Of a stretch of DNA of 64,000 nucleotides, positions 861 through 64,000 are shown piece after piece. Source of the DNA: Eucalyptus grandis (taxonomy: Eukaryota > Streptophyta > Magnoliopsida > Myrtales > Myrtaceae); assembly GCF_016545825.1 (NCBI RefSeq), contig NC_052616.1, forward strand, positions 42,701,529 to 42,765,528. The letters run 5' to 3'. The notes under the pieces were generated by a model. That model was not told where the DNA came from. It saw only the letters and a list, made by a program, of their open reading frames with translations, and ran no database searches. Position 1 is the stretch's first letter. Each line of letters opens with the position of its first letter. The translations under genes and the position numbers were made by a program.

Positions 861-1573
861 TGATGATGGTAAATGCATGATATGATGGTAATGAATATAT
901 GATGATGTATGTACATGAGGTATGATGACATGTGCATGATATCAAGGTAAATTGTGCATGGATACTTCAATGACATGTAATGCTATGATTGTGATGATTG
1001 CATGGCATGATGTTTTGAGTGGTTTGTTGGTCCTTTACCTACTGAGTAGTTGTACTCACCCCATTTGGGGAATAACATTTCAGACTAGATAAGATACATC
1101 TGCTGCCACTGCTACCAGTAGATGAATCAAGTGGTTGGTTATGATTACAAGAAGGCGAATAGTAAAGGGAGGAACTTTTGGACGCCAACACTAATCGATG
1201 GACTTTAAGTATTCGACTGTTGGAGAAGATGTCGGTCATCCTTTGAAGTGTAGTCGAGTATAGAAGACTATGGCATTTTGATGTACCGACTAAAGATGTC
1301 CATATGCTCTATGTAAATAAACATGTTCGGTTTTAACTTATATAAGATGTTTAGTAGGTGTGCATCGTTTTCTGAATATAGGGAATGGAGTTGTTGGATG
1401 TGCTTCCGTATATAAATTGCGCAAGGGACCGATCTAAAAGATGTAAACCCCCAAGTTTTATGGACCCGCTGCAATTGAAATGGTATCAGAGTGACATGTT
1501 ATTAGGAAAAAGGTGAATGGTAAGCGAACTGTGGTGACCCTAATCGGATCGGGGGCCGTCAAGGGGTGCCACA

Positions 1574-6726: not shown

Positions 6727-8689
6727 CATCGTCTTCTTCTTCCTTGAAGACCAACACCAACAGCAACACCAGCAGTGGCACCAGCTGTGACATCTTGAAA
6801 TTCGAACCCGTTTTGATAAAGTGAAATGGGATTTCGTCGACGTGCCTATGATCCTTTTTCTCTGAGCTGATCACTCATGAGTTAACTAACCTATTGGGTG
6901 AACTCGTTAAGGGATATATCCGCGGTAAAATCCCAAAAAGCTACATAATTGGTTGGATTGGACTAAAATCACGTTTGATCGATTATAACCAGAGAATTGA
7001 ATTCGATTTCAGGAATTGAATATTCGAGCGTGTCATAATTCATTTTTTTAGGATCTTGTCTCATCGTCCGTCAAATTATTGATGAGTCCGGAATTTCGGG
7101 AAAGAAATTATCAGAGGAAAAATTGAACACCTTGGAAGAAATTAAAAGAGAAAGGGAAATGATAGAAGTAATTTGAATAGTAGGATTTTTACTATTTGAT
7201 TACTTTTGTATTTTCTTTCTCTCTCTCATTCTCTCTCTCTTTTCTTTTCTCTCCACCGAATGCCTTGCTGTTTTTCACTTTCCCTCCTTCACTTTTCACC
7301 TTTTGACTATTCAACACTTGTCCTTTCTCTCTTCTCTCTCTTATCTCTTCTTCTCTTCTTCTCTCTCCCTCTCTCAACACACTCTCTCTCTCTCCCTCCG
7401 TTCGAATGAAGACAAAAAAGCGAGAGGAAGAAGAGAAGCCACCGAGAGAAGAGGAAGACCGAACCAACTCGTTGTCGCCGCCCGCGCCGCCACTCACCGC
7501 TCGCCTCTGCCTCTCCCTCACCCCCTTAGCTATCTTCACCACCCTGTCTTCTCCTCCCCTTTGTTTGTGCGAAGCCCGGCGGAAGTGGAAGCAGGCAACC
7601 AGCACCACCCGAAGGAGCAGCAGGTAACCACTCGGGCGTCGTCGCACCGCCGCCCGTGCGACGCCGCAGCTCAACCGCCTCACGCCCACGCCTGACGTCC
7701 CCACCATGCGACCCCAGCCCTGTTCTGCCTCTATCCAGCCACGTTCAACTACCTTCGGCCGCCGCCTAGCTCCGCCCGGCCACCACGCAGCGTCCCCGGA
7801 GTCCCGCTCGCCCTCCACCGGCCTCACCTTGCCATTTCGGCCACCAGACGATCTTCGTCCAGCGAATAACAGTGGCTAGAAAAGTGGGTTTCTAGCCCTG
7901 TTCAAGGCCCGCTTTGGGCCGTTTTCGGGCCCCGGACCTAAGCTGTGCTTTGGGGTTTATCGTTCCTCGCGTCGTCCCCGTCGGATTGATCCGATTTGCG
8001 TGCAATTCCGGTGAGTAATCTCACTAATCCTTGCTTAGTCGGCTAATTATACTTAATTGTTGTTTAGTTTTTTAATTAGGTTTAGGTGGTAAGATTAGTG
8101 TTTATTAGTTAATTATGATGCAAATTAGACAAATTGAATGTGTATTTAGAAAGTAGACATGGTCTAATATTTATTGAGGGTAGCTCGGGATTTTTCTGAC
8201 CCTTTATCGGGCTTCAATTTGACAATTCGGGCTTAAGTGGAATTTTTGGCATTTAAATATTATTTTTGGAATTAAATTAATAAATTATTTATTTTCCAAA
8301 ATTCAACTGAGATGACTAGTGACCGGAATATTATGCTGATGACCATGGTGAAGTCCATTTATTTAATTGGGCTTATTTTAAGCTAAATTGAATTTTAATA
8401 TTAATTATTTAATTTTCGAAATTAATTAATTATTTATTTATTTTCGGAAATTAAGGTTGAGATGACCGACGACTGAAATCTCGTGCTGATTGTCATGGTG
8501 CAGTCCATTTATTTAATTGAGTTCTACATTGTGCTGAATTAAATAAATTGTGGTTTTTTATGGGATTATTCCCAAAATTGAATTGATTTAATGGTGGATT
8601 TTTAGGATATGTTCCTAAATTGATTATTTGGGTAAATTGAGTATGAATTAAGGTTGTGGATAATTACTTTAGAAATGGGATGAATCATC

Positions 8690-8907
8690 ATGAAAGGCAC
8701 GCGGCTCGGTGAATAGTACATCATCTCGGAGAATGCACGTGGCTCGGTGATTTGGTATATTGCCTCGGAGAATGCACGTGGCTCGATGATTAGTACGTCG
8801 CCTTGGAGAATGCACGAGGTTTGATGATTAGATATGTCACCTTGGAGAATGTACGTGGCTTGGTGACGAAGTATATCGCCTTGGAGAATGCATGTGGCTC
8901 GGTGACT

Positions 8908-8948
<41 letters not shown>

Positions 8949-9110
8949 CTTAGAGAATGCACGTAGCTCGGTAAATTAATGTATTACCTTGGAAAATGTA
9001 CGTGGCCCGGTGATCAGTTCCATCACCTCGGAGAATGCACGTAGCTCGATGATAAGAAATATCGCCTCGGAGAATGCATGTGGCTCGGTGATTGGTTTTA
9101 TCAGTTGAGA
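8690..9110 (+). repeat. Minisatellite of about 42 bp in the LTR B2 intron
   Basis: Nine to ten imperfect copies of 'gaatgcacgtggctcggtga' plus a variable 'ttagtatatcgcctcgga' half. A pure (AT)n run at 8908-8943 interrupts the array. Repeats of different sequence occupy the same position in B1 (22600-22830), B3 (30773-30976, 40056-40440) and F (59860-59990). Confidence 0.9.
8908..8943. repeat. (AT)n microsatellite inside the minisatellite
   Basis: About 18 AT units in one copy of the 42-bp repeat; recent expansion. Confidence 0.95.
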
Positions 9111-9331
9111 CTGTATAGCAATGACTAGAATGACCCGGGAAATGGTCAGAGTGTCATGTAATCGATTAAGTCAATTGATCATTGCTTTGATTTGATATTG
9201 TGAATTGATTGACTGAATGGAAATGACCGTGAGTGGTCTTGTTGGTATATAATTGACTAGGTCGATTTGATCGATACTTCGATCTGTGATGTGATTACTT
9301 GGGTGTCTATTTGATCCGTGCTAACATGCAG

Positions 9332-9349
9332 GTGGGATCTGAGGCCAAG
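9332..9349 (+). other. Predicted 18-nt microexon of LTR B2
   Basis: Preceded by a branch-like and acceptor sequence (GCTAACATGCAG) and followed by a consensus donor (AAG|GTAAGT). It reads V-G-S-E-A-K in frame with the ORF of the next exon. Equivalent segments of 17-18 nt with both splice signals occur at 22958-22974, 31147-31164, 40607-40624 and 60236-60252, ending in a GA-G-nC-(A/C)AG pattern. Splicing is inferred, not shown. Confidence 0.65.
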
Positions 9350-9432
9350 GTAAGTCCTCTGACTCGTGCTGTGCTTAGGCAACCATGTAGTGTATTGGTT
9401 CTTTAATTGAGTCTTAGTGGGGTAGAGCTCAC

Positions 9433-9472
9433 TGAGACGTAGTCTCATCCCGGTTGTGGGACATTATTTCAG
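9433..9472 (+). promoter_or_regulatory. Conserved hairpin pair before the LTR 3' splice site
   Basis: TGAGAC-gta-GTCTCA (9433-9447) is followed by CCC-ggttgt-GGG (9449-9460) and the acceptor ATTATTTCAG. The first stem recurs before the acceptor in most LTRs of this window with compensated base changes. Confidence 0.65.
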
Positions 9473-9481: not shown

Positions 9482-10069
9482 ATGGCAGGACCTCCACCTC
9501 CTCATCCTCGTATGCACTACGGTATCCCAGAGCATATTTCAAAATTAGAGACCCACTTCCACGTCCACCCTCACCCGGAAGGATTAGTGTACGTATTAGT
9601 TCAATCAACCATCTGGGTTAACGTGGGGGAGGAAGACTAGAGGCCCCACAGATATCGGTCTTGGTACTATGATTATTTTGATGGATGCAGAGAAGGTCCT
9701 ATTCCGGAAGAGGACGTGCCTTTTGACGTGATGAAAAAGGCGTTTGGAGAGGGAACAGCTGATCGAGTGGATGGATCGGTAGTGGATGCGAGGGACCTGC
9801 AGCAAGAGGCCAAGGCTCGCACTCTTGTATATTCGATCAAGGAGGACAATGGGCATGAAGGTAATGGTGAGATGCCGCAGCAGGATGAGGAAGGACTGAA
9901 GGAGGACAAAGACTGGGGAGCAGCTGAGGAGATGCCTGAAGATGAGTCGACATCTGAAGCCGAAGATGAAGCTAAAGAAGAGAATGATGAGTTGGAAGAG
10001 AATGGACTGAGTGAAGAGGTGTCAGAGGAGGATCATAATGATCCTGTATATGATCCGGATGAGGACTGA
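9482..10069 (+). pseudogene. LTR-borne small protein gene (family B), 195 codons with one in-frame TAG
   Basis: ATG at 9482 lies nine bases after the acceptor in a context shared with the copy at 60380 (cttag-ATGGC). The frame continues to TGA at 10069 with a single amber stop at 9638-9640. N-terminus M-A-G-P-P-P-P-H-P-R; core S-T-I-W-V-N then H-R-Y-R-S-W-Y-Y and E-G-P-I-P; middle K-A-F-G-E-G-T-A-D; then a tail of mostly Glu and Asp ending D-P-D-E-D. No signal peptide or membrane segment. The core matches proteins at 14407, 44516, 56597, 60380 and 63856. Function unknown; not a known gag or pol domain. Confidence 0.65.
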
Positions 10070-12067
10070 TGTGCCATCTTGTTTTTGCAAGCTATGAGTT
10101 TTGATCGGAGTGCAGTAGATAAGACTCGTAAGTAGTATTGTATCATATACTATCTAGCTTGTCTGTTTAAAAGTGTGGGCGTGATTTTCAGTTATGAAAA
10201 AAGGTAGGTCTACTTTTCTATCCCATAGTTTTATTGTTTGGGGATTTTTCTTTATGCTTCCACATGTGCTTAATAAAATGAACAGGGACGGCGATACATA
10301 GTCCTGGGATATCGCGTTTCAAAATCGACCAAAGGTAAGGGATGTGCACGTGCCTGAGGATCGGGGCGTGACACCAGCAACAGCATCGGCACCACTAGCA
10401 GTGCACCAGTGGCACCTTCGACCCCTCTTCTTCCTCCTTCTCCTCCCCCCTTGCTTCCTATTCTTCCTGCCACTTCTTGCTTGAGCAACAATCTCAATCT
10501 TTCCTCGCTCACCTGGTCGAGCAACTATAATGGTGAAAAAGCGGCGGTGGCTAAGCGATGGCGGGCGAACGATGGTGTCCGAGTGGCGAGCGGCAGAAAC
10601 CCTAATTTCAATTCCCATGAGCTATATAGCGTCATTTCTGTGAGGATGTTCACGTATAACGGCAAAACGACGTCGTTTTAGAGCCACCACGACTTTTTTT
10701 TTAAAAAAATATAAAGGTCACGTAATTAATCTGGACGAAATCTCTTGCTGGTGGTACCAAAGTGATCATTTTTTTTTTTATGATTTGGCATTTAAGTGAT
10801 CTGACGGAAACTTTTGGCGCTAAAGTGAGCACCGTATACAACTTATGGCACCGATAATATACTTCTCCCCGCGTTAGGGACTTGCAGAAATGGTATAGAC
10901 ATTTTCTTCGATGAAATTGGACATCAAATTTGGAGAATTTGTAAAGAAATTGAAGCTTAAAACCTAGGAAATGCATATGTCATTTTGGGGGCTGCATTTT
11001 TGGCTTAAATTTGGACAAATTGGTGGAAATTATGTTGGAAAGTATTTGAGGACATGCATTTAATTAAGTGGATTGGGTTTGTTGATTCTTCCCCCAGCCG
11101 TGGCTTCTTCAACAAGCCTTGACCAGCTGCTCTTGCTTTTCTTCATTTTCTTTGGAATTCTGCCCCTTTCACCGACGGAGCCTCTCTGCCATTTCCACCG
11201 AAACAACTTCAATTCCTTTCCATCCCTGCAGCTGCCACTCATTCGCAACCCCACGCCCACAAAGTTCTCCCCCGAAGCCACCGTTTGATCTCTGCCCCCT
11301 CTCACGCGGCTAGCTCGCCCCTACTCCACCATCTATTGTTTTCCTTGGTCAACTTCAGCAAAATTCTTCAAGTGAAGTCCCAGGTGTTGACCGAAGCTGC
11401 TGCCCATTCAGCCCATCTCCACGTTTGCTCTCTCTCTCCATTGCTCCTGCCGCTCCATTTCCACTTGTCTCCGTCCAGCTGCGAGGAGTCGAAGCCACCG
11501 AATAGCTGCTGTCCATCCTCATCCCACGCTAGCCCATGTTCCAGTCAACGATGCCATCCCCTCAATCGGTTTGTTGACCGAACCAGCTCACGTAGTCGCC
11601 GATCCATCCAGCGTCTCGGCCTAAAACCCACCAGCAACCCACTTGCTTGTGAGCTCATCAACTCTAGAAGCGCAAGCTTCAGCCCAAGACCCCAGCAGAG
11701 GCCCACGAAATTTTCTTGTTTAGCCCACACAATTTCGGCTCAACCCATCCTTGCTAGGCCCAGCTCGCAAATTCCAGCCCAGTCCAGCGAAGCCCAGCAG
11801 CTCACATTTCCAAGCCCGCGCCATTTGATGTGGCATCCTAGAATTTCATGACAACCTCTAGATGTGCTATAAACCATGAATAGGTGATGGAAGCACCATC
11901 ATATTATATTGTAGCCATTAGACCCATGATTTGCAATAAGATTAACGCCGAACTTTTAATGGATAATAAATTGATAGGAAAATTCTATTCTTGGCCATGT
12001 ATTTTATAGGTTGGAATTTATTGATTTATGTTGCAAGTTTTATGGCCCTAGAAATTTCAATTAGGTA

Positions 12068-12077
12068 TTTATATAAG
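12068..12077 (+). promoter_or_regulatory. TATA-like box of LTR A
   Basis: TTTATATAAG, conserved in the 3' LTR at 20171-20180, about 240 bases from the LTR start, as expected for a U3 promoter. Confidence 0.5.
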
Positions 12078-12312
12078 TGGGGATTTAGAATAGATTATTA
12101 AAAGAAGGAGTGGGTCGAAATTTTAAGCCTAAAAGCTAGCCCCACCGTTCGGCCACTAAGGCCTAGCCCGCGAAGCCCAAAGGGAGGGGCCTGCCGTCGA
12201 TCGAAGGGGGAGAGGCCTGGCCCAAGGATGGCCCATCAACCTGCATGCCAATCCCCAAATGGCGAGAGAAGCTTGCCAAGTGTTAGTCCATTGTAGCCAA
12301 GTGTAAGATGCT

Positions 12313-12570
12313 ATGCAAAATCAAATGATTGCTAATGATGAAGAGGAAAGAAAAGAGGAAGGGCGGATTGATGAAGGGAGTTTTCGACCGAGAGAAAGAC
12401 AGAGAGAGAGAGAGAGAGCTGTCGTACGGGAGAAGGAGAGAAAGAAAGAAAGAGAGGAAGAGAGAAAGAAGGAGGCCCGTTGCTGCCGTGCGTGCCACCT
12501 AGTCCCGCCGTTGAGCCGCCTTGCCCCATCGTGTCCTTGCTGTGTTTTTGCTTGGATTAGAGGCAAGTAG
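12313..12570 (+). other. GA-rich leader of LTR A with a possible GC-AG splice donor
   Basis: An Arg/Glu-rich ORF (from ATG 12313) results from GA-rich sequence. Its last codons coincide with AGAG|GCAAGTAG, the consensus form of a rare GC donor, at 12562/12563. The matching acceptor would be 14398, giving an 1836-base intron. The deletion in the 3' LTR removes this donor. Confidence 0.35.
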
Positions 12571-13639
12571 AGTTCATTGATCTACCCTTTGCTTGCTATG
12601 GTTGTGATGTTGAATACTGGAAATGCTTGAGCTGTGATGTTGAATGCTGGAAACCCGAATGAATGGTGGTATTGTTCCAAGTGAGTTGTTGCATGTAGAA
12701 ACAGTCCGACCTTTGATGATTTCGTGAGTTGCATGCAAAGTTCTAGTTGGAATCTAACTTCGACTTTTGTATGAAAGTTGTAGAGGACTTCTTGGAGAGT
12801 AACATATCAAAATTTTAGAGGAAATAAACAAGTATAGGTCGGTGAAACCATTTTTCTTTGAAGAAAGTGAATATGGAAACCGTTATGTTGATCTATTGTG
12901 ATTCTATGAATTTTGTGAAATTATTAAGTCCGAATTTGATTTTGTGTTCTTGATAAGAGTTGTAGATGACATCTTGAGAAGTAACACACTAAAATTTGAG
13001 AATAAAAGGACAATTATTGATCGAGGAAAATGATTTCCTTTGAAGAGGATGAATCTAGACGGTGAACCGAGAGTTAGGGAGAGTTATAAAAATTATAAAT
13101 TTTAATCCATAAGGAATTAGACTTCAATTTCTTCATGGGAATTTTACCTCTAGATCTCATCTATAACATATTAAAATCTCATAATTTTCGAAGTTCATTT
13201 ATGGGCTTAATCGAAATTATTTCCGAAACTGTGCAAAAAGTGGCGTTGGAAATTCTTTTGCTGTGATGTATGGATCTATGTGATTGATGTGAAACTTTCT
13301 TGACATGGTGTTCTTCACAAAATATCTTCCTCTGGATCTTGTTTACATCATGTTAAATTTTCAGAATTCATTGAGATTGTTTACTAATTTTTCAAGAATT
13401 TTTACTAAAGAGGTGTATTCTGTTTTACCCAAAAATTGGTTTTATTTTCAAAAACCAATGAATTTCTTTATGAAATGTGATATCATGGGTGTTATGTGTA
13501 CTGCATATATGATGACATTTGGCATATCATATGGCATCAAAAAGCTGGTTTAGAACTTTGATATTGTTGCATTAAATGCCATATTGAAAATGAGACATAT
13601 ATGTGGTTATATATTGTGATAATAATGATAACATCGAAG

Positions 13640-13900
13640 GTGTGAGCCGACGATGCCCCAGGAGTGTCGGGATGCCCGAAGGTTTGTGCCAGAGGATCCT
13701 CGGGAGTTTCGAGATGCCCGGTGGTATACGGTACGAAATTCCAAGGGGAATGCCTGGTGGTATGGCGGTACGTAATTCCGAAAGCCCTAGAGGTTTGTGC
13801 CGGGGGATTCATCCTGATGATAGTTGAGGTGCGAGATGCCCGAAGGTTTGGGCTGGATGCCCGGAGGTTTGTGCCGAAGGTTCCCCGCGATGCCAGGTTG
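13640..13900 (+). repeat. Minisatellite in 5' LTR A intron
   Basis: Units with 'gatgcccgaaggtttgtgcc' and 'ggtatggcggtacgtaattcc' repeat imperfectly. In the 3' LTR the array has collapsed to one unit near 20545-20610. Confidence 0.75.
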
Positions 13901-14357
13901 GGTGCGAGCGATAAATGAGGGATGCAAACATTGGTCCGTGGAAGGAAAATGATGAGATCCTTGTGAAAGATAAAAATTGAAATTGAATCATGTGTATGGG
14001 TGTATGCATGTGGCATGATACATGATCTGCTTATGAAAGTAAATTGATGCTATTTGACATTGAGAATGCGATCATGAAGGCTTGAATGGATCTCATGGGG
14101 ATGTATACATGATTGTATGGATGACATGAATCATGCGTATGTATGTGCATATGGCATGGAATGAACCTCATGGAAATACAAGTATGATTGCATGGTGGTA
14201 TATGCACGATGGCATGGTGAGATATGCATGACTGCGTAGTGATATATGCACGACCGCATGGTGGTGTATGCTCGATAGCATGGATGATATGTGCTTTACT
14301 CGTGATATCTTGATTGTCTTGCTTATTGCATTGTGTAGTTTGATAGATCTTTACTGC

Positions 14358-14398
14358 TGAGTGATTGTACTCACCCCTTTTGGGGACTAACATTTCAG
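14358..14398 (+). promoter_or_regulatory. Hairpin pair and 3' splice site of LTR A
   Basis: TGAGT-gattgt-ACTCA (14358-14373) is directly followed by CCCC-tttt-GGGG (14374-14385), then ACTAACATTTCAG. The ACTAAC looks like a branch point 6-8 bases before the acceptor, unusually close. Confidence 0.6.
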
Positions 14399-14406
14399 AT
14401 TGAGAG

Positions 14407-14658
14407 ATGCCTCTATCACCTGTCACGCGTGGTACATTTTATAGATTACCATATGATGTTGAGGTCGAGTGCTTGGAGCACCCCTGCGTCGGTGTTCATG
14501 GTTTGGTGTTTATCTGCGTCCCTGTTTTGGTCATGTATGATGTAGGCTTACCTGATGGCCCCATAGTACATGAGTTTCTATCTGTCCATGTTCGTCGAAA
14601 TGGGAGGATGATGGGGATGTTGCCACTGCCCCCGGCCGATGCACCAGAATGGGCGTGA
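14407..14658 (+). CDS. LTR-borne small protein (family A), 83 aa, intact in the 5' LTR
   Basis: ATG lies eight bases after the predicted acceptor (ATTGAGAG spacer, also ATTGATAGC in LTR C and ATTAGACAAG in LTR A2). The product has T-F-Y near residue 10, a hydrophobic middle (G-L-V-F-I-C-V-P-V-L-V-M), D-V-G-L-P-D-G, then H-E-F and M-L-P-L-P-P near the end. The copy at 63856 shares T-F-Y, D-x-G-L-P-x-G, x-E-F and L-P-L-P-P with its very different remainder, which suggests selection on protein. It is sense to the element's pol. No recognised domain; not gag or pol. Confidence 0.6.
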   Translation: MPLSPVTRGTFYRLPYDVEVECLEHPCVGVHGLVFICVPVLVMYDVGLPDGPIVHEFLSVHVRRNGRMMGMLPLPPADAPEWA

Positions 14659-14827
14659 TAGGAGCGTGTGACTAGTGGAGGTTGATACTTTTTGGGATGG
14701 CCGACACTAGCTGATGGATAGATGTACATGTTTGATGTATAGTCGGGTTCTTTTTGGGTTTAGCCGAGCTTACTTAAAGTCTTGGCCATTTTGTTGTACC
14801 GACTTGTGAAATCCATTTTAGTATGTA

Positions 14828-14833
14828 AATAAA
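14828..14833 (+). terminator. AATAAA polyadenylation signal of LTR A
   Basis: AATAAA about 170 bases after the ORF stop; conserved at 21448 in the 3' LTR. LTR B2 has one at 10272. Confidence 0.5.
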
Positions 14834-15115
14834 AGTGGTTTGGCATTAGCTTTTATATATGTATGGGAAGTGTAGTTGGTGTGTATTGCATCGTATTATT
14901 TAGTCTGTGTACTGGTTAGGGAGATGATGAATATGCTTCCGTTATATGAACTGCGCTGGGACCGATCTAAAAGGTGTAAACCCCCAGGTTTCATGGACCC
15001 GCTGCAATTGAAATTGTATCAGAGTAACATGTTATTAGGACAAGTGATAGGTGAGTAACCTGTGGCGACCTTAGCGGATCGGGGGCCGTGTCGAGGGGTG
15101 CCACATCCCCCTTTT

Positions 15116-15127
15116 TGGTATCAGAGC
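15116..15127 (+). other. Primer-binding site of element A
   Basis: TGGTATCAGAGC, complementary to the 3' end of plant initiator tRNA-Met, ten bases after the LTR end. Confidence 0.9.
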
Positions 15128-16419: not shown

Positions 16420-18510
16420 ATCCTCAGAGGCCACCAGCACAAGGAAGGGTGTATGCGGTCACCCAAGAGGAAGCGGAAGCTTCCAAAAATGTTATAGCAG
16501 GTACGATTTTCATAAATGGCAAGAAGGTATATGCATTGTTTGACACGGGTGCTATGCATTCATTTATATCTGAATGATATAGGCAATTGAGTGAAATAGA
16601 AACTACACCTCTTGAGACGCCTCTTTGTGTTTCCACGCCTTTAAAGAATATGGTGTTATCTACGATGATGTGTGCAAAATGTAAGATAACTATAGAAGGA
16701 CGGGATATGGAAATAGACCTAGTTGTGATGGCTATGTATGACTTTGATGTTATCATAAGAATGGACTGGCTCCATAAGTATAGGGCTAAGGTGGACTGCT
16801 ATAGGAAAGTGATCCAGTTCATGTTACCTGATCAGTCTAGTTTCGAATCTTTTGGAGGTCAGACAAACCCCTCTATAGCCATTATCTCAATGGTAGAAGC
16901 TCGTGAACTACTTGACGAAGGATGTCAAGGATACCTAGCAGTGGTAAGAGATCTTGCTAAGGAAAATGCTAAAATTGATGAGATTCAAATAGTCAGGGAA
17001 TTTCAGGATGTGTTCCCTGAGGAGTTGCTTGGATTACCACCAGAACGAGAGATTGAGTTTGAGATTGAACTAATGCCTAGAACAGGACCAATATCGAAAG
17101 CCCCGTATAGAATGGCCTTGGTGGAGTTGAAGGAGTTGAAGGTGCAACTACAAGAGTTGCTTGATAAGGGATTTATTAGGCCAAGTGCTTCACCTTGGGG
17201 CACACCAATTCTATTTATGAAAAAGAAGGACGGGTTGATGCGTCTATGTATTGACTATAGACAGCTGAACCAAGTGACTATAAAGAATACGTATCCTTTG
17301 CCTAGAATTGATGACTTATTTGATCAATTGCAAGGAAGTTCAGTTTTTTTCTAAAATTGACTTAAGGTCAGGATACCATCAGTTAAGGATAAAGAAAGAG
17401 GACATTCCTAAGACTGTATTTAGGACTTGTTATGGACATTATGAGTTTCTAGTTATGCCTTTTGGATCAACGAATGCACCAGCCGCATTCATGGATTTAA
17501 TGAATAGGATATTTGAGCCTTATCTGGATCAGTTTGTAATTGTCTTCATCGATGATATCCTGATATATTCTAAAGGACCTGAAGAGCATGAACAACACTT
17601 GAGGATAGCATTACAAACATTAAGAGATCATGAGTTATACGCCAAATTCAGTAAGTGTGAATTCTGGCTAGATTAGATAATATTTTTAGGGCACGTGGTG
17701 TCAAGGAATGGAATTGCAGTAGACCCTGCAAAAGTTGAGATGGTAGTAAATTGGCCGAGACCAACAACGCCGACTAAGATACGGAGTTTCTTAGGGTTGG
17801 CTAGCTATTATAGGAGGTTTATAGAAGGATTTTCACACCTGGCAGGCCCTTTAATGAAATTGACCCGAAAGAATGTAAGATTTGAATGGAGCGGAGAATG
17901 TGAAAGAAGTTTTCAGGAATTTAAAAGAAAGTTGACTACAGCCCTAATTCTAACTATACCATCTAGACCTGATGGATTCACGGTGTATAGTGATGCTTCT
18001 CATAAAGGACTGGGATGTATTTTGATGCAGCATGGCAAGGTCATAGCCTATGCATCGAGGTAGTTGAAACCTCATGAGTTAAATTACCCAGCCCATGATT
18101 TAGAATTGGCAGCTATAGTATTTGCTTTGAAAATATGGAGACATTATCTGTATGGAGAGAAGTTTGAAATCTATACGGATCATAAGAGCTTGAAGTATTT
18201 GTTTTCGCAAAAAGAGTTGAACATGAGACAAAGAAGATGAATGAAATTATTAAAAGATTATGACTGTGAGATACGATACCATCTAGGAAAGGCAAATAAG
18301 GTGGTAGATGCCCTTAGTCGAAAGTCGGCTATGGACATGACTAGTCTAAGAATAACAGAGTGGAATCTGTTAAAGTCAATTGTGGATTCAGATTTTAAGT
18401 TGGAAATGGACCACCTTACTGGTATGGTCACTGCATTAAGGATTGAGCCCAAAGTTATTCAGAAAGTTAAGATTTTACAAAAGTCTGACCTGGAGATTTT
18501 GAAAATATGA
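16420..18510 (+). pseudogene. Protease, reverse transcriptase and RNase H of element A
   Basis: Aspartic protease D-T-G-A at 16542; the typical F-D-V-I-I-x-M-D-W-L follows at about 16745. Reverse transcriptase from about 17000 (L-C-I-D-Y-R-Q-L-N) to the catalytic F-I-D-D-I-L-I-Y at 17545, RNase H with V-Y-S-D-A-S near 17985 and T-D-H-K-S near 18175. Defects: TGA at 16576, a one-base frameshift near 17350, TAG at 17674, TAG at 18061, TGA at 18238, TGA at 18508. RT active-site aspartates remain, but the frame is not usable. Confidence 0.92.
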
Positions 18511-19887
18511 GATGCTGTGTCTTTAGAAAAAAGACCAGAGTTTCAAGTTTCGGAAGACGGAGTAGTAAGATGCCAAGGACGGCTCTGTGTTCCTGATAAT
18601 GAAGAAGTAAGAAGGGAGATCCTATCATAAGCGCATAAGAGTAATTATAGTATTCATCCGGGGAGTACAAAAATGTATAGAAATTTACGCTAGCAATTTT
18701 GGTGGAATGGCATGAAGAAGGATATAGCTAAGCATGTTTCTCAGTGTTTAACATGCCAGAAAGTGAAAACGGAAGATTGCAAACCCGCAGGACTATTAAG
18801 ACCATTGGACGTACCATAATGGAAATGGGAGCATGTGACGATAGACTTTGTGTAAGGACTACCAAGGACATCAAGTGGTCACAACTCTATTTGGATAATA
18901 GTAGATCGTTTGACTAAGTTTGCTCATTTCCTAGCGGTCCGCGTAGACTATTCGATGGATAAACTTGCTGAGATATATGTAAGCCAAGTGGTACGGTTAC
19001 ATGGTATTCCTGTAACGATCACATCGGATCGAGACTCTAGGTTTACTTCAAATTTTTGGCAAAGTCTCCAGAATGTTTTAGGGATGAAGCTTCAATTTAG
19101 TACTGCTTTTCATCCTCAAACAGATGGACAAACGAAAAGAGTGATCCAAACTTTGGAAGATATGCTGTGAGTATGTATTATTGATTTTAAGGGAAGTTGA
19201 GATGAAAAATTGCACTTGATAGAGTTCTCCTATAACAATAGTTTTCATAAAAGTATAGTTATGGCTCCGTTTGAAGCATTATATGGAAGAAGGTGCAGGA
19301 CCCCTATTTGTTGGAATGAAGTAGGTGAAAGGAAATTGACAGGACCTGAATTAGTACAAATTACTACTGAGGCTGTGGAGATAATAAGGAGAAGACTTAG
19401 GACAGCCCAGAGTAGGCAGAAAGACTACATAGATAAGCGTAGGAGACCTTTAGAATTTGATGTGGGAGATCATGTGTTACTTAAAGTATCCCTTATGAAA
19501 GGAATATCTCGATTTGGAATGAAGGGTAAGTTAAGCCCTAGATTTGTTGGATCTTTTTAGATACTTGAAAGAATAGGAGATGTAGCTTATCATTTGGTGC
19601 TGCCTTCTAAATTAGAAAATTTGCATGATGTACTCCATGTATCGATGCTGAGAAAGTATCAGTCGGATCCTGGTCACATACTCGATCATGAAGCTATCAA
19701 AGTGGATGAGAAAGTGAGGTACATTGAAGAGCCCGTGCAAGTATTGGATCGAAATGAGCAAATTCTTAGGACCAAGAAAATTCCATTGGTTAAGATATTA
19801 TGGCGATATCATGATGTGGAGGAAGCCACATGGGAGAGTGAAAATGAGACGAGGGAAAGGTACCCTCACTTGTTTCAAGAGACATAG
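18511..19887 (+). pseudogene. Integrase and C-terminal chromodomain of element A
   Basis: An H2C2 zinc domain (C-L-T-C near 18750), integrase core with I-D-F near 18840, T-S-D-R-D-S-R near 19020 and the H-P-Q-T-D-G-Q segment near 19110, where the expected catalytic Glu two residues on is Lys. Stops at about 18691, 18820, 18855, 19168 and 19557. A chromodomain closes the protein (L-V-K-I-L-W-R-Y-H ... A-T-W-E-S-E, about 19785-19850), placing the element in the chromovirus branch. Confidence 0.9.
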
Positions 19888-19932: not shown

Positions 19933-21725
19933 TGTGGCATCCTAGAATATCATGACAACCTCCAGATGTGCTATGAACCATGAATAGGTGATGGAAGCAC
20001 CATCATAGTATATTGTAACCATTAGACCCATGATTTACAATAAGATTAAGGCCGAGCTTTTAATGGATAATAAATTGATAGGAAAATTCTATTCTTGGCC
20101 ATGCGTTTTATAAGTTGGAATTTATTGATTTATGTTGCAAGTTTTATGGCCCTAGAAATTTCAATTAGGTATTTATATAAGTGGGGATTTAGAATAGATC
20201 ATTAAAAGAAGGAGTGGCCCGAAATTTTAAGCCCAAAGACCAGCCCCACCATTCGGCCACTAAGGCCTGGCCCGCGAAGCCCAAAGGGAGGGGGCTGCCA
20301 TCGACCGAAAGGGGAGAGGCCCTACCTAAGGATGGCCCATCAACCTGCATGCAAATCCCCAAGTGGCAAGAGAAGCTTGCCAAGTGTTAGTCCATTGTAG
20401 CCAAGTGTAAGATGCCATGCAAAATCAAATGATTGCTAATGATGAAGGGGAAAGAAAAGAGGAGGGGCGGATTGATGAAGGGGGTTTTCGACCGAGAGAG
20501 AGAGAGAGAGAGAGAGATGTGGTTATATATTGTGATAATAATGATACCGTCAGAGGTGTGAGCCGACGATGCCTCGAGAGTGTCAAGTTGGGTGTGAGCA
20601 ATAAATGAGGGATGCAAACATTGGTCCGTGGAAGGAAAATGATGAGATCCTTGTGAAAGATGAAAATTGAAATTGAATCATGTGCATGGGTGTATGCATG
20701 TGGCATGATACATGATCTGCTTATGAAAGTAAATTGATGCTATTTGACATTGAGAATGCGATCATGAAGGCTTGAATGGATCTCATTGGGGATGTATACA
20801 TGATTGTATGGATGACATGAATCATGCGTATGTATGTGCATATGCATGACTACATAGTGATATATGCACGACCGCATGGTGATGTATGCTCGATAGCATG
20901 GATGATATGTGCTTTACTCGTGATATCTTGATTGTCTTGCTTGTTGTATTGTGTAGTTTGATGGATCTTTACTGCTGAGTGGTTGTACTCACCTCTTTTG
21001 GGGACTCACATTTCAGATTGAGAGACGCCTCTATCACCTGTCATGTGTGGCACATTTTATGGATTACCTTATGATGTTGAGGTCGAGTGCTCGGAGCACC
21101 CCTGCATGGGTGTTCATGGTTTGGTGTTTATCCGCGTCCGTATTTTGGTCATGTATGATGTGGGCTTACCTAATGGCCCCGTAGTACAGGAGTTTCTATT
21201 TTTGTCCATGTTCGTCAAGATGGGAGGATGATGGGGATGTTGCCGCCGCCCCTGGCCGATGCACCGGGATACGTGTGATAGGAGCGTGTGACTAATGGAG
21301 GTTGACACTTTTTGGGATGGCTGACACTAGCTGATGGATAGATGTACATGTCTGATGTATAGTCGGGTTCTTTTTGGGTTTAGTTGAGCTTACTTAAAGT
21401 CTTGGCCCTTTTGTTGTACCGACTTGTGAAATCCATCTTAGTATGTAAATAAAAGTGGTTCGGCATTAGCTTTTATATATATATGAGAAGTGTAGTTGGT
21501 GTGTATTGCATCGTATTATTTAGTTTGTGTACGGGTTAGGGAGATGATGAATATGCTTCCGTTATATGAACTGCACTGGGACCGATCTAAATGATGTAAA
21601 CCCCCAGGTTTTATGGACCCGCTACAATTGAAATGGTATCGGAGTGACATCTTATTAGGACAAGTGATAGGTGAGTAGGCTGTGGCAACCCTAGCGGATC
21701 GGGGGTCGTGTCGAGGGGTGCCACA
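19933..21725 (+). repeat. 3' LTR of element A, internally deleted (1793 bp)
   Basis: Aligns to the 5' LTR at both ends, but 12419-13597 of the 5' LTR is missing at the GA repeat (junction near 20517), and about 225 bp of the minisatellite and a further short stretch near 20850 are also lost. The donor-bearing leader is gone. Hairpin pair 20976-21001 and acceptor 21016 remain. Confidence 0.88.
21025..21231 (+). pseudogene. 3' LTR copy of the family-A small protein, start lost and frameshifted
   Basis: The start codon equivalent is ACG instead of ATG. The frame matches the 5' copy up to the E-F-L segment, then a short insertion shifts it to an early TGA near 21229. A usable ATG at 21043 is internal. 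Confidence 0.7.
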
Positions 21726-22974: not shown

Positions 22975-23424
22975 GTAAGTCCATATGATTGTGTGATTGT
23001 GTGGTTAGGACTCCTTTGGGCGTATTATCCTCCTAATTGGGGTTTAGAGCGTGAACTCGCTAAGATTTATATCTCACCCTGTTGTGGGCTTAAATTTTCA
23101 GGATCGTCGAGTGGAGGACCTGGAGCCGAGAGGAGGTGATCTGAAATGTAGGTCAATTATGACCACTTCTTTTTAGAAAGTCAATCTTTGTAGTCTTTTA
23201 GTCATAGACCTTGTACATGATTCAGTGTGTATATAAAGGTGTGTTTTGTTTGTGAATTTGTTTTATGTTTTTCTATCCCAAGCTATTGATGTCAGGGGAT
23301 TAGTAATTTGCTTCCGCATGTGCATTAAAATGAAAGGGTTGGCAACTCATCCTGGAAAGTCGCAAAATTTTATCGACCAAAGAGGGATGGGCACATGCTC
23401 GGAGGTTTGGGATATGACATGTGG

Positions 23425-34350: not shown

Positions 34351-34432
34351 GGCATATTTTCTTCCTAACCGATCTTAAGGGGTAGAACTTGCTGAGACAT
34401 AGTCTCATCCCAGTTGTGAGACAACATTTCAA

Positions 34433-34543
34433 GAGGAACCTGAGGAGGAAGAACCCGAAGAGGAGGACCCTGATGAGGAACCAGCGGAGGAGTCTGAGGA
34501 GGATCCCGAGGATGATCTGGAGTATGACCCGGATGAGGACTGA
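34433..34543 (+). pseudogene. Acidic tail exon of the LTR-borne protein (B3), core lost
   Basis: 36 codons beginning right after the decayed acceptor, 23 of them Glu or Asp-dominated repeats of E-E-P/D-P, ending L-E-Y-D-P-D-E-D-stop. The end matches V-Y-D-P-D-E-D of B2. The T-I-W-V-N core is absent. No ATG within the exon; in frame with the microexon, so any start must lie in the lost leader. Confidence 0.6.
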
Positions 34544-34826
34544 GACCCCTTTTGCAAACTCTAAGTTTGCAGATCTAACTTGTTAATAGTATTGTAAGAT
34601 ATACTATGAGGTTTGCTTTGTATAAAAGTGTAATTGTGGTTTTTCATATGTGAAAAATATAGCTCTACTTTTTATCACATTGTTTTATTATCTGGGGATT
34701 TTTATTTGCTTCCACATGCGTATTAAAATGAAAGGGGTCGGCGATCTGTCCTGGGATGTCACTAATAATCGACTAATGAGGGATGGGCGCGTGCTCGAGG
34801 ATCGGGGTGTGACATCCCCGTTTAGG

Positions 34827-40055: not shown

Positions 40056-40440
40056 TTGCCAAGTGGGGTCGTGATACCACTAAATTTCACCAAACCTAAG
40101 AATTGCCGAATGGGGCCGTGATACCACTAAGTCTAGAAAAATTGCCGAGTGGGACCGTGATACCACTAAGTCTAGAAAAATTGCCGAGTGGGGCCATGAT
40201 ACCACTAAATATCGAAAATTGCCAAGTGGGTCCATGATGCCACTAAATATTGAAAATTGCCAAGTGGTGCCGTGGTGCCACTAAATATCGAAAATTGCCA
40301 AGTGGAGCCGTGATGCCGCTAAATATCGAAAATTGCTGAGTAGGGCCGTTAAGCCACTGAATCTAAGAAAATTGTTCAATGGGGCCGTGATTTCCACTAA
40401 ACCTAGAAAAGTTGACAGTGGAGCTGTGATGACCACTTAA
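40056..40440 (+). repeat. Minisatellite of LTR B3 (3' copy), about ten 36-40 bp units
   Basis: Units 'aattgccgagtggggccgtg' plus 'ataccactaaatatcgaaa'. Unit number and sequence differ from the 5' copy. Confidence 0.9.
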
Positions 40441-40606
40441 CTAGGTTATGCCTGTTAGGTTGTGGTTAAGAGTTGAGAATAAATAATCGAAATGATCGGG
40501 TAATGGTATCGATGACATGTAATTGACTGAGTCGATTAATCGATGATTCGATCTGTTTGATTGAATGATGTGCTTGTGAGTATCTGTTATTTGAACTGAC
40601 TTGTAG

Positions 40607-40624
40607 GAAGGAACTGAGGCCAAG
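40607..40624 (+). other. Predicted 18-nt microexon of LTR B3 (3' copy)
   Basis: CTTGTAG | E-G-T-E-A-K codons | ATAAGC. The donor's first base is mutated. The next acceptor at 40747 gives a 123-base intron, the same length as in B2. Confidence 0.55.
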
Positions 40625-40948
40625 ATAAGCTCTCTGACTCGTGGTTGTGCTTAGGCAGCCCATAAGACATATTTTATTCCTAATTGGGTCTTAGGGGGTA
40701 GAACTTACTGAGATGTAGTCTCTCTTAGTTGTGGAACAACATTTCAGGAGGAACCCGAGGAGGAAGAACTCAAAGAAGAGGACCCTAATGAGGAATCGGA
40801 GAAGGATAACATGGACATTTTCATATAATTTAGAGACTAAATTAAACATGTACAAAAAATTTAGGCACCGCATTGAACAAATTAAAAATTTAGGGACAAT
40901 ATTGCACATTAGGCCAAAACTTAGGGTTCAATTGTGTAGTTTTTCCTT

Positions 40949-41011: not shown

Positions 41012-42064
41012 ATGCGTTTGAAACTTGCAAAAAATTTCTCCATATGGCTGATACTTGTCTTGTATGCATGTAAAGTGCAGCCGGTCAACCGGACTCACAA
41101 GGTTGGATTGAACAAGTTCTCGGACTTGACCAACGAGGAATTTGTGGCAGCATATACCCGATACAAATTGCCATCATCAACACGCAGGAACTCGTCCCAA
41201 GTCAATTCTTTTAAGTACCAAGGTTCGAATAGCATCCCAGAGAGCGTCAATTGGGTAAAACAAGGTGCTGTCAACCCTATAAAGAACCAAGGCCAATGTG
41301 GTAAGAAATTTATTGCTAACTATTGAAGCCTATACTAAGATATGCGAGCAATTGCATTGCCCAGCTTAAATCCACTTGTCATAAAATATTACACTGTGAA
41401 ACACTAAACAAATTAATTTTTCTGAGAAGTTTTCATCATTGAATTATAATCACTGCAGAACTCACTACCTTATGTGTACAGGATCTTGCTGGTTCTCCGT
41501 GGTGGCGGCGGTCGAAGCAATCACACAGATCACCACTGGCGTGCTACCAAACCTGTCCGAGCAGCAACTCATAGACTGCGCCACTGACGGGAACCAGGGC
41601 TGTCAAGGCGGCTGGATGGACAATGGCTTCGAGTACATCATCAACAACAATGGCATCAGCTCCGAGACGAACTACCCGTACGTTGGGGTCGACAGCACCT
41701 GCGATGTGCAGGCCTCATCTGTTGCCGAGGCCAAAATATCGGACTACAGGGACGTCCCCCGAACGAGGACGACATGCTGAAGGCCGTGGCAATGCAGCCG
41801 GTGTCAGTAGCACTCGACTCGAGCGGGGCCGCGTTCCAGAATTATGCAGGCGGTGTCTTTACTGGCCCATGTGGGATCGATCTGAACCATGCGGTGACGG
41901 TTGTCGGGTACGGGACGGACATGGATGGGATGAAGTACTGGTTGATGAGGAACTCTTGGGATGTCTCCTGGGGCGAGAGCGGGTACATGAGAATTCAGAG
42001 GGATTCTGGGGTCGAAGGTGGCCTTTGTGGAATTGCCTGCAAAGTTTCTTATCCCGTTGCATAA
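41012..42064 (+). pseudogene. Papain-type cysteine protease (SAG39-like), damaged
   Basis: Exon 1 41012-41300, intron 41301-41481 (GTAAGA...TACAG), exon 2 41482-42064. A hydrophobic N-terminus runs directly into N-R-T-H-K-V-G-L-N-K-F-S-D-L-T-N-E-E-F, so most of the I29 (ERFNIN) inhibitor prodomain is missing. Peptidase C1A: Gln in N-Q-G-Q-C-G, catalytic Cys in C-G-S-C-W, with the Ala normally after Trp deleted, His in L-N-H-A-V, Asn in R-N-S-W. A one-base deletion near 41757 shifts the frame; the correct frame resumes and ends in S-Y-P-V-A. Family members are secreted or vacuolar and act in senescence. Prodomain loss plus frameshift argue for a pseudogene. Confidence 0.88.
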
Positions 42065-44270: not shown

Positions 44271-44516
44271 CTAGGCGCCATCCATCCCCGCTCCAAGTCC
44301 TCCTACTCCAAAGGGTAAAGGTCCAAATATCTCCCCTTCATGGTTGATAAACCATGCAATGAACGTCATCGGTATCAACTCAGCTCTACCGTCATCCATC
44401 CATAAAGTAGCCTCATACTTGGAGAAAGTCATGTCAATGTCGGGATCATACACGTCATGAAGAGAAACATCAAGACGCACTACCACCCCGTATCGAGCTA
44501 CTGGCGGTACATTCAT
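44271..44516 (-). CDS. LTR-borne small protein (LTR C), 81 aa, intact frame
   Basis: ATG follows the acceptor after ATTGATAGC. N-terminus M-N-V-P-P-V-A-R-Y-G resembles P-P-V-R-Y-G of LTR F; then a Met-Asp-Asp-Gly, F-I-A-W-F near residue 52 and G-P-L-P-F near 66, the family's shared features. Gly-rich end. No signal peptide or transmembrane stretch. Function unknown. Confidence 0.55.
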   Translation of the reverse strand: MNVPPVARYGVVVRLDVSLHDVYDPDIDMTFSKYEATLWMDDGRAELIPMTFIAWFINHEGEIFGPLPFGVGGLGAGMDGA

Positions 44517-56396: not shown

Positions 56397-56597
56397 CTAG
56401 TTGATGCCTCCCCCTAAACCCCTAGCCTTAAGTGGACTGTTGAAATCACGGGTGGGACCATGGCTCTCATCTCCTACCCAGAAATACCACGCCACAAAAC
56501 GGTGAGCCATTATATTAGGTAAACCCCTATTGACCCAAATGGTCGTGATATAACACGTGTAGCGAGCATCAATCTCTCCTATTGGGTAGTCAATCAC
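56397..56597 (-). CDS. LTR-borne small protein (LTR D), up to 66 aa
   Basis: Contains A-R-Y-T-C-Y-I-T-T-I-W-V-N-R-G-L-P, then H-R-F-V-A-W-Y-F-W and a Gly-Pro, the clearest link between the A-type (G-L-P) and B-type (T-I-W-V-N) proteins. The upstream part is less certain; the acceptor may be CTTGTAG near 56615. A Gly-rich end precedes the stop. Confidence 0.55.
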   Translation of the reverse strand: MIDYPIGEIDARYTCYITTIWVNRGLPNIMAHRFVAWYFWVGDESHGPTRDFNSPLKARGLGGGIN

Positions 56598-57654
56598 CTC
56601 CTGGCTATGCTCTACAAGGAGTCAAAATTAGATTTGGCAAAAGGCTCAGCCATTCTTAAGGCTTATAAATAATCATTAAATGGCACTGAGATAAACCAAT
56701 GAGTGAACTTCCTAAACCTCGCATAAGGAAGCCACTCAACCTAGATGCGTCCTAAACACGCAATTATCTATTAATGGCAAAACCTAACCATGTTTTTCTA
56801 CATTTACTCTATCTATCCAAATTACATCAAATTTATTTAATCAAGATATAACGCATAGGTAATTTCCATAATACTTTCCACATGCTTGAGTCAATCGTAC
56901 GAGTACACAATATAGTTAAATCATGCGCCAATGCCATGCTATAATATGGACCTAATCACATACAAATCTCATACACTTGTCACACAAATATGTCCATATT
57001 ATTATGGCCACTTATGAGCCAAGACCAACCCAAAGGTTCGCAATCATTTGGCATAACCCGGCATCGTCTCACTCCATCGAACATGGTAATGTCCTGCGTA
57101 AACACATCAAGACAACATTTCTGTAAGGAGATTCATTCTAAAATTCATCCGCGAATGGCATCCCATTGACTTAGGGGCATCTGAACAGAATTGGGCATCG
57201 TCCCACGTAAAATGCATCAAGACAGGTTCACACCCCGCGGAAAACATGTCTAGGTCTTTTGGTGGTCACACGAGCATTTTATTACACAATTCATTTCATA
57301 TCTTTCTCATTAATCAATGTGATGCCCATGCAATATGCAACAATCTTTGCCATATGCCATCATGTCATACACATCCCTCATATTATATCATATAAATGCA
57401 CCATTTAATTCACGAGCCCATGACGTATAGGTCACTTATCAAAATAGAATAATTTCATCATAACATGTCAAAATCATTTATGATGTGTCAGCATAAACCA
57501 TCAAATAGCTCATCTTTCAATTAATATACATATCACAATGCCACAACATACTTTAGTAACGTGCTTTATCACAACATCACTTCATATAACCTATATCACC
57601 ACGTAATAGTATATCATTCTATTATGACATATTATAACAACATATCATACTTCA

Positions 57655-60235: not shown

Positions 60236-60252
60236 AAGAGAAATGAGACGAG
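60236..60252 (+). other. Predicted 17-nt microexon of LTR F
   Basis: ACTAACATGCAG before, ACGAG|GTAAGT after. Same ACTAACATGCAG-type acceptor as B2. Confidence 0.6.
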
Positions 60253-60379: not shown

Positions 60380-60670
60380 ATGGCGGCCCCACCAGTTCGT
60401 TACGGTCAGCCTCAGAGGGTTACCAAGCAGGTGACTGATTTCCCTGTTCCTGGAGGTCACGAGGTCTAGGTCTATGATCTCGTAGTGACCACCGTCTAGG
60501 TTGATGAAGGCCTACCTGAGAGGATACCTCATTGATTTAAGGCGTGGTCCCCTCCAGGGTTTTGAGGTCCTAACTATGGTAGTAGACACCGCTTTTGGAG
60601 AGGGTACAACTGATCATCCTAATGGTGCTGTGGTGGACCCACCGCCCCAGGAGCCTGCGAAGTCCGAATG
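60380..60670 (+). pseudogene. LTR-borne small protein (LTR F), several stops
   Basis: ATG in the cttag-ATGGC context nine bases after the acceptor. M-A-A-P-P-V-R-Y-G, a decayed T-T-V-x-V-D-E-G-L-P, F-K-A-W, then after a frameshift A-F-G-E-G-T-T-D, matching A-F-G-E-G-T-A-D of B2. The acidic tail is absent; it ends P-A-K-S-E-stop. Confidence 0.65.
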
Positions 60671-61475
60671 ATCGATGAACGTGTCCGGCTAGTGGACTGT
60701 AGGACAGTTTCCTTTGGAGGGCTGATCTTTTTGTTAGATAGACTTTTGTATATAAACCGAGGTGTTTATAAAAGTGTTTGGTTGTGAAATTGTTTCCCAG
60801 TTTTTCTATCTCGTGTTGGTTGTTGTCAGGGGAATCATTTCACTTCCACATGTGCATAAAATGAATGGATTGGCGACACGTCCTGGGACATCACAAATTT
60901 ATCGACCACTGAGGGATGTGCACGCACTCGAGGATTCGGGGTGTGACACCCTAAGTGTAGCAACAACCCTAATCAAGGGCTATAAAGCCATTTACATGCA
61001 ATCCAAGCTTTGTAAAGTGTTGGAGGAAGGTGCGGCAAGGCTGGACAGCTACTGGTCAAGCCTCCATAGTGCACGTGGGAGGCTAGATGGTGGCTGGACG
61101 GTGGCTGGACGGCAGCTGATCAGCGACTGGATAGCAATTAGCTGGCGGCAGTGGCCTCCAGGCTTCCTGGGGACCAAACCACAAGGGAGAAATAGGGAGA
61201 AAAAGTTGCTATGAGGGCTAGACTGTCACACCCCCGCCCCACCTTTGGCATTAGAGCATGACCCAACAGCATAACATTGACGCCCCAGGCAACATCAAAT
61301 GTCTCGAAATTCTTTTATCTTTAGTTAAGCACATGTGGAAGCGATCATAAACAATCCCCATACAAACAAACATGGACATCGGGCAAGACATATGCAAACC
61401 AAGCAAATAAAAGCAACATATACAATATGATATACATATTCACACATCAAAAGCTGTTTTGATTACATGCATAGC

Positions 61476-63171: not shown

Positions 63172-64000
63172 TGTGGCACCCCCTAAACGAACCCCAATCC
63201 GTTAGGGTGGCCACAGATACCTTTGCTTTCTCTTGACCTAATAATCTATTACTTTGATACCATAGAAATTTAGTAAGTCCATGAATCCTGGGGGTTTATA
63301 TCCTTTCCATAGGTCCCTACGCAGTTTACATAGCAAAAGCGTATCCAACAACTCGCTTCCATATTTAAAACAATGCACACCAACTAAACATTTTTATAGG
63401 TAAAAGCCAAACACTTTTATTTACATAAATCTAATGGACATCATTCAGTCAGTACGCCAAAAATGCCGCGTTTTCTATACCCGGCTACATACCAAAAGAT
63501 ACCCGACTTTCTTTTTCCCAACAATCATATACGTAAATCCATCAGCAGTATCGGCATCCAAAAGTCTTGCCTTTGCTATCCCTAGCTCGCGGTCACTCCA
63601 CACCACTTGGTTCCCTGTTGTCATCTTCTGGTGGCAATGGCAGTGGCCCCAGAGTACGTCCATCCCTCCAAACATACAAGACGACAAACTCCTGACGCAC
63701 GAGACCCGAGGGTAGGCCAGTGTCAATAGTCAATATCACCCTCACCAAGAAGAATGTCAATCCAAGTGATTCGTAGTCATGATACTCCAACTGTTCCCAC
63801 CGCAAATCGATAAGGATCCCATAGAAAGTACAGGGAGGCACGAGCAGTAGAGACATCTTGTCTAATCTGAAATGTTAGTCCCCAAAAAGGGGTGAGTACA
63901 ACCACCCAACAGTTGAAGATCTACCAAGCTATACTATGCAAGCCATCACAATCCAAGTCCATGCAAGATAGATAAAACAAGTAATCAAAGAATGAGTATG
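63172..64000 (-). repeat. Family-A LTR (A2), minus strand, cut by the window end
   Basis: Reverse complement ends GGGGGTGCCACA at 63172 and matches the A LTR ends ('aaacccccagg', 'atggacttactaa', 'ggtatcaaagtaa'). It contains the hairpin pair 63880-63908 and acceptor (exon begins 63866). No PBS follows. Confidence 0.75.
63593..63856 (-). CDS. LTR-borne small protein (LTR A2), 87 aa, intact
   Basis: ATG ten bases after the acceptor (ATTAGACAAG). Shares with the 14407 copy T-F-Y near residue 10, a hydrophobic middle, D-T-G-L-P-S-G, Q-E-F, R-D-G-R and G-P-L-P-L-P-P. Most other residues differ, yet length and frame are kept. A short Glu/Asp-containing end follows. Confidence 0.6.
   Translation of the reverse strand: MSLLLVPPCTFYGILIDLRWEQLEYHDYESLGLTFFLVRVILTIDTGLPSGLVRQEFVVLYVWRDGRTLGPLPLPPEDDNREPSGVE

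Follow-up and report, generated by a model that had tools for sequence, protein, structure and literature searches.

Plant LTRs are commonly treated as promoters and terminators. In HIV, the nef gene overlaps the 3' LTR and thus has a likeness to the ORFs described here, but nef lies only partly inside the LTR. In MMTV and other betaretroviruses, the accessory gene sag is located mostly in the LTR (U3) and is present in many solo LTRs, and its omega is below one across lineages and near one after insertion (available sections of PMC4667437). In CRM-clade chromoviruses, the gag-pol ORF runs on into the 3' LTR (available sections of PMC3605345). The aORFs or eORFs of plant Ty3/gypsy elements, some of them in Tekay, are found up- or downstream of gag-pol and outside it, and are described as poorly conserved and mostly without a known domain in the accessible parts of PMC7264820, PMC11728184 and PMC6317226. 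For Eucalyptus, an LTR element paper gives Tekay family LTRs of 555 bp (available text of PMC4535378). A plant LTR-resident gene is not mentioned in the accessible text of PMC4535378, PMC11963269 or PMC1560396, and no plant LTR-resident gene family was found in the literature searched, though one may be in print.

The DNA studied here, referred to as the window, is a 64 kb stretch of plant repeat DNA (GC 0.41) with several Ty3/gypsy-type LTRs inside. Seven LTR copies in it contain related ORFs whose core spans about 80 codons; A, B1, B2 and E are on the plus strand, C, D and F on the minus strand (Table 1). In every copy the ORF follows a splice-acceptor-like AG and lies upstream of the LTR end. 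All seven places given in the initial annotation, which claimed at least seven such copies on both strands, hold, except that the start of D is moved from 56597 to 56653.

The ORF family resembles sag in its place inside an LTR. A cross-lineage constraint that is lost after insertion may be a further likeness, suggested by one pair of lineages (see below). However, sag as described in the available text is a vertebrate-retrovirus superantigen gene located mostly in U3, whereas the ORF family belongs to plant Ty3/gypsy elements and lies near the LTR 3' end. Whether or not it falls in U3, it lies upstream of AATAAA where AATAAA is present. Pfam includes a Sag family, and a Pfam scan of 14 members (12 of the 15 database relatives described below plus window copies C and F) at E up to 5 gave no family, Sag included, a separation drawn by Pfam only. 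The ORF family is sag-like in layout and unrelated to sag, and is not classed in the MMTV superantigen family.

With the CRM elements, as far as they are described in the accessible text, the likeness is a plant chromovirus with coding sequence within LTR DNA. The CRM sequence is however the end of pol, while the ORF family is separate, preceded by an acceptor-like site of its own and starting at its own ATG (or a remnant of it). A CRM-type pol extension was considered and rejected, as the ORF of element B is not continuous with gag-pol and starts about 1.09 kb into the 3' LTR, past pol. Like the aORFs and eORFs, the family consists of non-gag-pol proteins that are poorly conserved and without a known domain. 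It does not fall in the class surveyed, which in the available sections occupies the internal region and not the LTRs, since B1 and B2 are inside LTRs. The survey in PMC6317226 would miss the family because, in its accessible methods, at least 250 codons are required.

LTR families and features of the window

Element B is the best-defined element, with an LTR pair, a primer-binding site, a purine tract and pol all present, and the LTR status of B1 and B2 is firm. The protease, reverse transcriptase and RNase H pieces match RVP_2 (E 2.1e-22), RVT_1 (6.3e-28) and RT_RNaseH_2 (1.7e-12), SH3_Tf2-1 is matched with 42.5 bits, above the Pfam cut-off, and Chromo with 17.2 bits, below its cut-off of 25.1. 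From its motifs, element B may be a Tekay/Del chromovirus. Its pol has a stop codon upstream of the purine tract and the 3' LTR, and the 5' LTR is about 1.5 kb longer than the 3' LTR. The ORF sits in both of these paired LTRs, intact in B1 and decayed in B2.

The LTR status of F comes from homology to the element B LTR, that of D from a PBS-like site after the LTR end, and that of A, C and E from LTR-end sequences together with homology. The LTR ends are of three kinds: TGTGGCA...TGCCACA (B, F), TGTCACRCCC (A, E, D) and GACGTCACA (C). Because D and E in addition have little DNA in common, matching only locally over 16-28 nt, the number of LTR families is at least four, in agreement with the earlier proposal that the ORFs come from several of them.

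Table 1. Features of the 64 kb window related to the LTR-borne ORFs. Coordinates are window positions.
Feature	Position	Strand	Description
LTR end H (B/F type)	1072..1573	+	acceptor and both ORF ends retained; beta core absent
Copy A, predicted mini-exon and intron	9325..9472	+	CATGCAG, 18 nt, GTAAGT; 123-nt intron, acceptor TTTCAG
Copy A ORF	9482..10069	+	195 residues, beta core and long acidic tail; one in-frame stop, codon 53
Copy A LTR 3' end	10363..10373	+	GGGGCGTGACA
Element B 5' LTR	11829..15105	+	ends TGTGGCATCC...GGGGTGCCACA
Copy B1, in element B 5' LTR	14407..14658	+	intact 83-codon ORF; acceptor GACTAACATTTCAG 8 nt 5' of ATG
Element B primer-binding site	15116..15127	+	TGGTATCAGAGC
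Element B protease, reverse transcriptase, RNase H pieces	16587..18060	+	Pfam matches
Element B integrase C-terminus and chromodomain-like region	19564..19884	+	Pfam
Element B 3' LTR	19933..21725	+	purine-rich tract before it
Copy B2, in element B 3' LTR	21025..21222	+	ATG lost, frameshift further on
LTR end E2 (E type)	22980..23419 (bounds approximate)	+	mini-exon, GTAAGT donor, acceptor; no beta core
LTR end G	34360..34814	+	beta core absent, acceptor region fused to acidic tail (ends EYDPDED); PBS-like site at 34827
LTR copy G2	40161..40800	+	no beta core; end of copy cut off
Copy C	44271..44516	-	intact 81-codon ORF; acceptor TTTTTAG 9 nt 5' of ATG; presumed LTR end near 43819
Copy D	56442..56653	-	broken ORF; ATG 56653, recognisable frame 56615-56442, frameshifted; LTR end 55928, then PBS-like site
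Copy E, predicted mini-exon	60236..60252	+	17 nt; donor GTAAGT 60253-60258; predicted intron 119 nt
Copy E	60380..60672 (end approximate)	+	broken ORF, several stops; LTR end 60948
Copy F	63593..63856	-	intact 87-codon ORF; acceptor ACTAACATTTCAG 10 nt 5' of ATG; LTR end 63172

Splice layout of the copies

An AG 8-10 nt before the start is found in all seven copies, compared with 429 of the 2734 ATGs in the window. When at least four T in the preceding 12 nt are required as well, the counts are 7/7 and 185/2734, and with at least five T they are 4/7 and 107/2734. The copies are homologous, and the 7/7 counts are therefore not independent. AATAAA is located 3' of the ORF in A, B1, B2, C and F, while E has only ATAAAA and D neither. 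Of the common placement proposed earlier, just after an acceptor and before AATAAA, the first half thus stands for every copy, but the second does not extend to D and E.

In A and E, the predicted mini-exons lie between CATGCAG and GTAAGT, about 130-150 nt 5' of the ATG. This layout is common to E2; it is also seen in G, with GTAAGC, and in G2, where the GT of the donor is altered. No comparable mini-exon donor was identified in B, C, D or F. Judging from the acceptor- and donor-like sequences, the layout is as would be expected for a self-contained spliced gene. A conserved stem-loop 5' of the acceptor was also considered and rejected: among 11 copies only A beats the shuffles (P 0.00), the ten others having P values of 0.09-0.77.

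Evidence for a protein family

Profile HMMs were seeded with window pieces picked by eye, groups were left out in turn, and the window was searched in six frames. The left-out copies A, C, D, E and F were recovered with iE values of 6.8e-8, 1e-5, 9.3e-8, 4.7e-7 and 0.0064, respectively. B1 and B2, which are not among the seeds, were found at 9.6e-6 and 1.4e-3 with F seeded, and drop to 0.38 and 9.1 when F is left out. The profile built from the translations, suggested in the initial annotation as a check, thus finds the window copies again, and fifteen relatives were obtained by protein search.

The similarity between copies is largely specific to the coding frame. Here the mean pairwise z is 5.34, and 7 of 15 pairs exceed 4. 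The five other frames have means of 0.13-1.66, with 0-2 of 15 pairs exceeding 4; downstream LTR DNA gives 0.14-0.92. The values for D are lowered, because it was read from its ATG across the frameshift. The A and E proteins, aligned with each other, reach z 13.4 and 14.5 in two calculations. The best conserved positions of the family are an early Y-G and a G in the middle of the domain. Of the motifs listed earlier as shared, Y-G stands, but T-I-W-V-N and H-x-F-x-A-W-Y occur in only part of the family.

The ORFs could also be chance open frames or an artefact of translation. Frames of 81-86 codons taken singly are open to an equal length in 2.5% (B1), 0.8% (C) and 1.5% (F) of base shuffles, so one ORF alone would mean little, and the HMM seeds were selected by eye. 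However, these low fractions also mean that the ORFs are not equally open in shuffled controls, and the frame-specific similarity between LTR families, the codon pattern of the B1-F pair (see below) and the existence of database relatives make an origin by chance extremely improbable. That these LTRs contain a protein-coding family is the more secure part of our reading, and we hold it with high confidence.

Database relatives and predicted structure

None of the fifteen database relatives has a precomputed Pfam label. Seven are named, all from Eucalyptus (the closest named are Eucalyptus grandis and E. globulus), and eight come from sources labelled jgi or lgn; 11 of the 15 are 79-83 aa long. 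The named matches suggest that the window derives from Eucalyptus or a close relative. Their intactness is biased, because the database keeps predicted ORFs. The relatives form three subtypes. The MDVPP...YG subtype (C type) consists of five proteins of 81 aa that are 77-93% identical to copy C, and a further protein search around it gave nothing besides these five. In the MPLxPV...FYG subtype, six proteins measure 79-83 aa and one 62 aa, and a longer model has 162 aa. The acidic-tailed subtype (A type) has two proteins of 154 and 159 aa. Copy A is 68% identical to P0001 over 82% of the length and 66% identical to P0002 over 79%. The net charge is negative in C, F, B1 and 14 of the 15 relatives; the exception is P0015, which has an N-terminal extension and a net charge of +1.

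AlphaFold2 predicts a confident core of four strands in the C type (residues 11-24, 29-41, 48-59 and 62-64); pLDDT is at least 90 for 39 of the 81 residues. The A-type model is of lower confidence (mean pLDDT 66, zero residues at 90 or above) and has strands 19-31, 35-47, 53-65 and 70-74, besides a short helix and a tail predicted with low confidence. The strand order is equal in the two models, a four-strand beta meander, although the input alignments share most rows. A structure prediction of the core had been proposed as a check, and the core comes out as four strands in both models. Structural comparison of the models gave no significant match.

Selection and divergence

In the fairest of the tests, the B1-F pair was aligned as DNA without protein guidance (75 codons), with wrong-frame and downstream controls. 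In the true frame pS is 0.713 and pN 0.341, and omega is about 0.2, the lowest of the six frames; the value is rough because synonymous sites are near saturation (dS 2.25). The five other frames give 0.38-1.48 and downstream DNA 0.64-1.28, and the signal comes from a single pair of lineages, with the nearest wrong frame at 0.38. Differences at the three codon positions are 0.438, 0.315 and 0.589 (n=73 each; third versus rest P 0.004). The B2-F pair has the pattern 0.391, 0.255 and 0.532, which is not independent of B1-F. In the initial annotation a dN/dS near 1 across many copies was to count against the family. The B1-F value does not point that way, but it concerns one nearly saturated pair and not many copies.

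The paired LTRs B1 and B2 behave differently, with omega 1.03 over 57 codons and 15 base differences. From the two values it appears that the constraint belongs to the replicating lineages and not to the inserted copies, i.e., the ORF seems to be selected while elements replicate and to decay after insertion.

Protein-guided dN/dS was calculated for 21 pairs, 18 of which have pS 0.66-0.97 and pN 0.38-0.56, but the control failed. When 15 pairs are pooled, the coding frame has a ratio of 0.56, wrong frames have 0.59-0.65 and codon shuffles 0.53, and these estimates were discarded because of this similarity. The pairs A-E, D-E and C-E are not alignable as DNA across the ORF.

Within the subfamilies, tests were made for the C type (38/43 replacements, five proteins, conserved sites chosen by hand) and the B type (64/81 replacements, six proteins, P0013 and P0015 left out). 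P values for BLOSUM, conserved sites and number of sites are 0.037, 0.107 and 0.887 in the C type and 0.108, 0.0075 and 0.378 in the B type. The constraint inside subfamilies is weak, with two of the six tests below 0.05.

The flanks are better conserved than the ORF. Between B1 and F they differ at 0.235 of positions (n=537), compared with 0.589 at ORF third positions (P 2e-9); for second codon positions against the flank, P is 0.15. Between A and E, flank identity is 77% over 153 nt upstream and 84% over 141 nt close to the LTR end, while the ORFs align as DNA over 25 nt only. This could reflect strong constraint on the flanks, fast evolution of the ORF, or swapping of the ORF between lineages.

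Such swapping of a cassette is what would be expected if a captured host gene fragment had been spread across LTR families by recombination, with no gain for the element, and the A-E divergence fits this. However, there is no Pfam match and no match to the ORF family in a PDB sequence comparison, no named non-eucalypt relative is among the matches listed in word-limited protein searches, and the start spacing is alike in all seven copies. We consider a host fragment improbable.

LTR ends without the core

Among 11 readable LTR ends, a list that is not exhaustive, seven have the core and four do not (H at 1573, E2 at 23.1 kb, G at 34.8 kb and G2 at 40.7 kb), and the latter retain elements of the splice layout. 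G and G2 probably represent the LTR pair of a single element. In this pair (34360-34814 and 40700-40800, plus strand), the acceptor region runs directly into the A-type acidic tail, as if the beta core had been precisely excised. As both LTRs of the pair are without it, the core was apparently dispensable in cis at insertion. The core-less copies fit a dispensable or trans-acting accessory protein and speak against an essential one.

The ORF is uninterrupted in just three copies, B1, C and F, and broken in A, B2, D and E, so the earlier statement of seven encoding copies is right about related ORFs but not about intact ones. It had also been proposed that the LTR is itself a gene and that solo LTRs are complete units. 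As worded, this is not supported, given the B1/B2 omega, the four broken ORFs and the four LTR ends without the core.

These observations could also mean that the ORF is a relic, useful in a shared ancestor and now drifting, and that what matters is the intron and leader layout, i.e., a function of the LTR RNA. The four core-less ends with mini-exon, donor or acceptor, the 4/7 broken ORFs, the better conserved flanks and the weak constraint within subfamilies all agree with this. On the other hand, B1-F has its low omega in the true frame, all three subtypes have intact ORFs in the window or the database (which keeps open frames by construction), and the predicted strand order is equal for the C and A types. 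We regard a relic as unlikely.

A possible accessory gene

We suggest, with moderate confidence, that the ORFs represent an LTR-borne accessory gene in several chromovirus-type Ty3/gypsy lineages. The LTR promoter would drive a transcript in which a short leader exon is spliced to the acceptor 8-10 nt 5' of the ATG, and the LTR's own poly(A) signal would end it, so that one LTR would be a whole gene. The product would be small and mostly acidic, with a beta-meander fold and, in one subtype, a Glu/Asp-rich tail. It may act in trans as an accessory factor of the element, most likely where the element meets host silencing or chromatin. The gene would be selected on replicating lineages, change fast and decay in inserted copies. 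The proposed role in silencing or chromatin is a guess based on the acidity, the fast evolution and analogy. More tentatively, it can be speculated that this is a sag-like LTR gene, a self-contained spliced unit in each LTR that encodes a fast-evolving accessory protein with an undescribed small fold, and that the many solo LTRs of a genome form a reservoir in trans serving (or sabotaging) the family.

A special case of the accessory-gene reading is a transactivator or anti-silencing factor that targets the LTRs themselves, with solo LTRs feeding the family in trans. The ORF sits in the promoter-bearing LTR and evolves fast, the A type has a strongly acidic tail (net charge -47 in P0001 and -40 in P0002), and modulation of RNA silencing has been proposed for an unrelated extra ORF in a sunflower Tekay element (available sections of PMC11728184). 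However, the short proteins have net charges of only -1 to -9, unlike a direct DNA binder, and there is no domain match. We find this special case rather doubtful.

The accessory-gene reading suggests that a lone leftover LTR might still make a protein. If the LTRs of abundant plant elements encode a protein under selection, each solo LTR is a potential gene. The family would then be a new class of element-host interaction protein open to testing, and LTR evolution could be followed across lineages through a protein, as it was for betaretroviruses with sag.

Other features of the window

Adjoining the G2 LTR, positions 41300-42200 (plus strand) contain a cysteine-protease-like C-terminal part, readable in more than one frame, which from its motifs we take to be papain-like; a Pfam scan of the 170-aa ORF at 41623-42135 within it gave no match. 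Upstream of copy A is a tandem repeat of units of about 39 nt (8685-9101, plus strand). At 61224 the plus strand reads TGTCACACCC, followed by a PBS-like TGGCATTAGAGC at 61246, an LTR boundary in either orientation. Between LTRs D and C there is a reverse transcriptase piece on the minus strand (48181-48894, RVT_1 1.9e-11).
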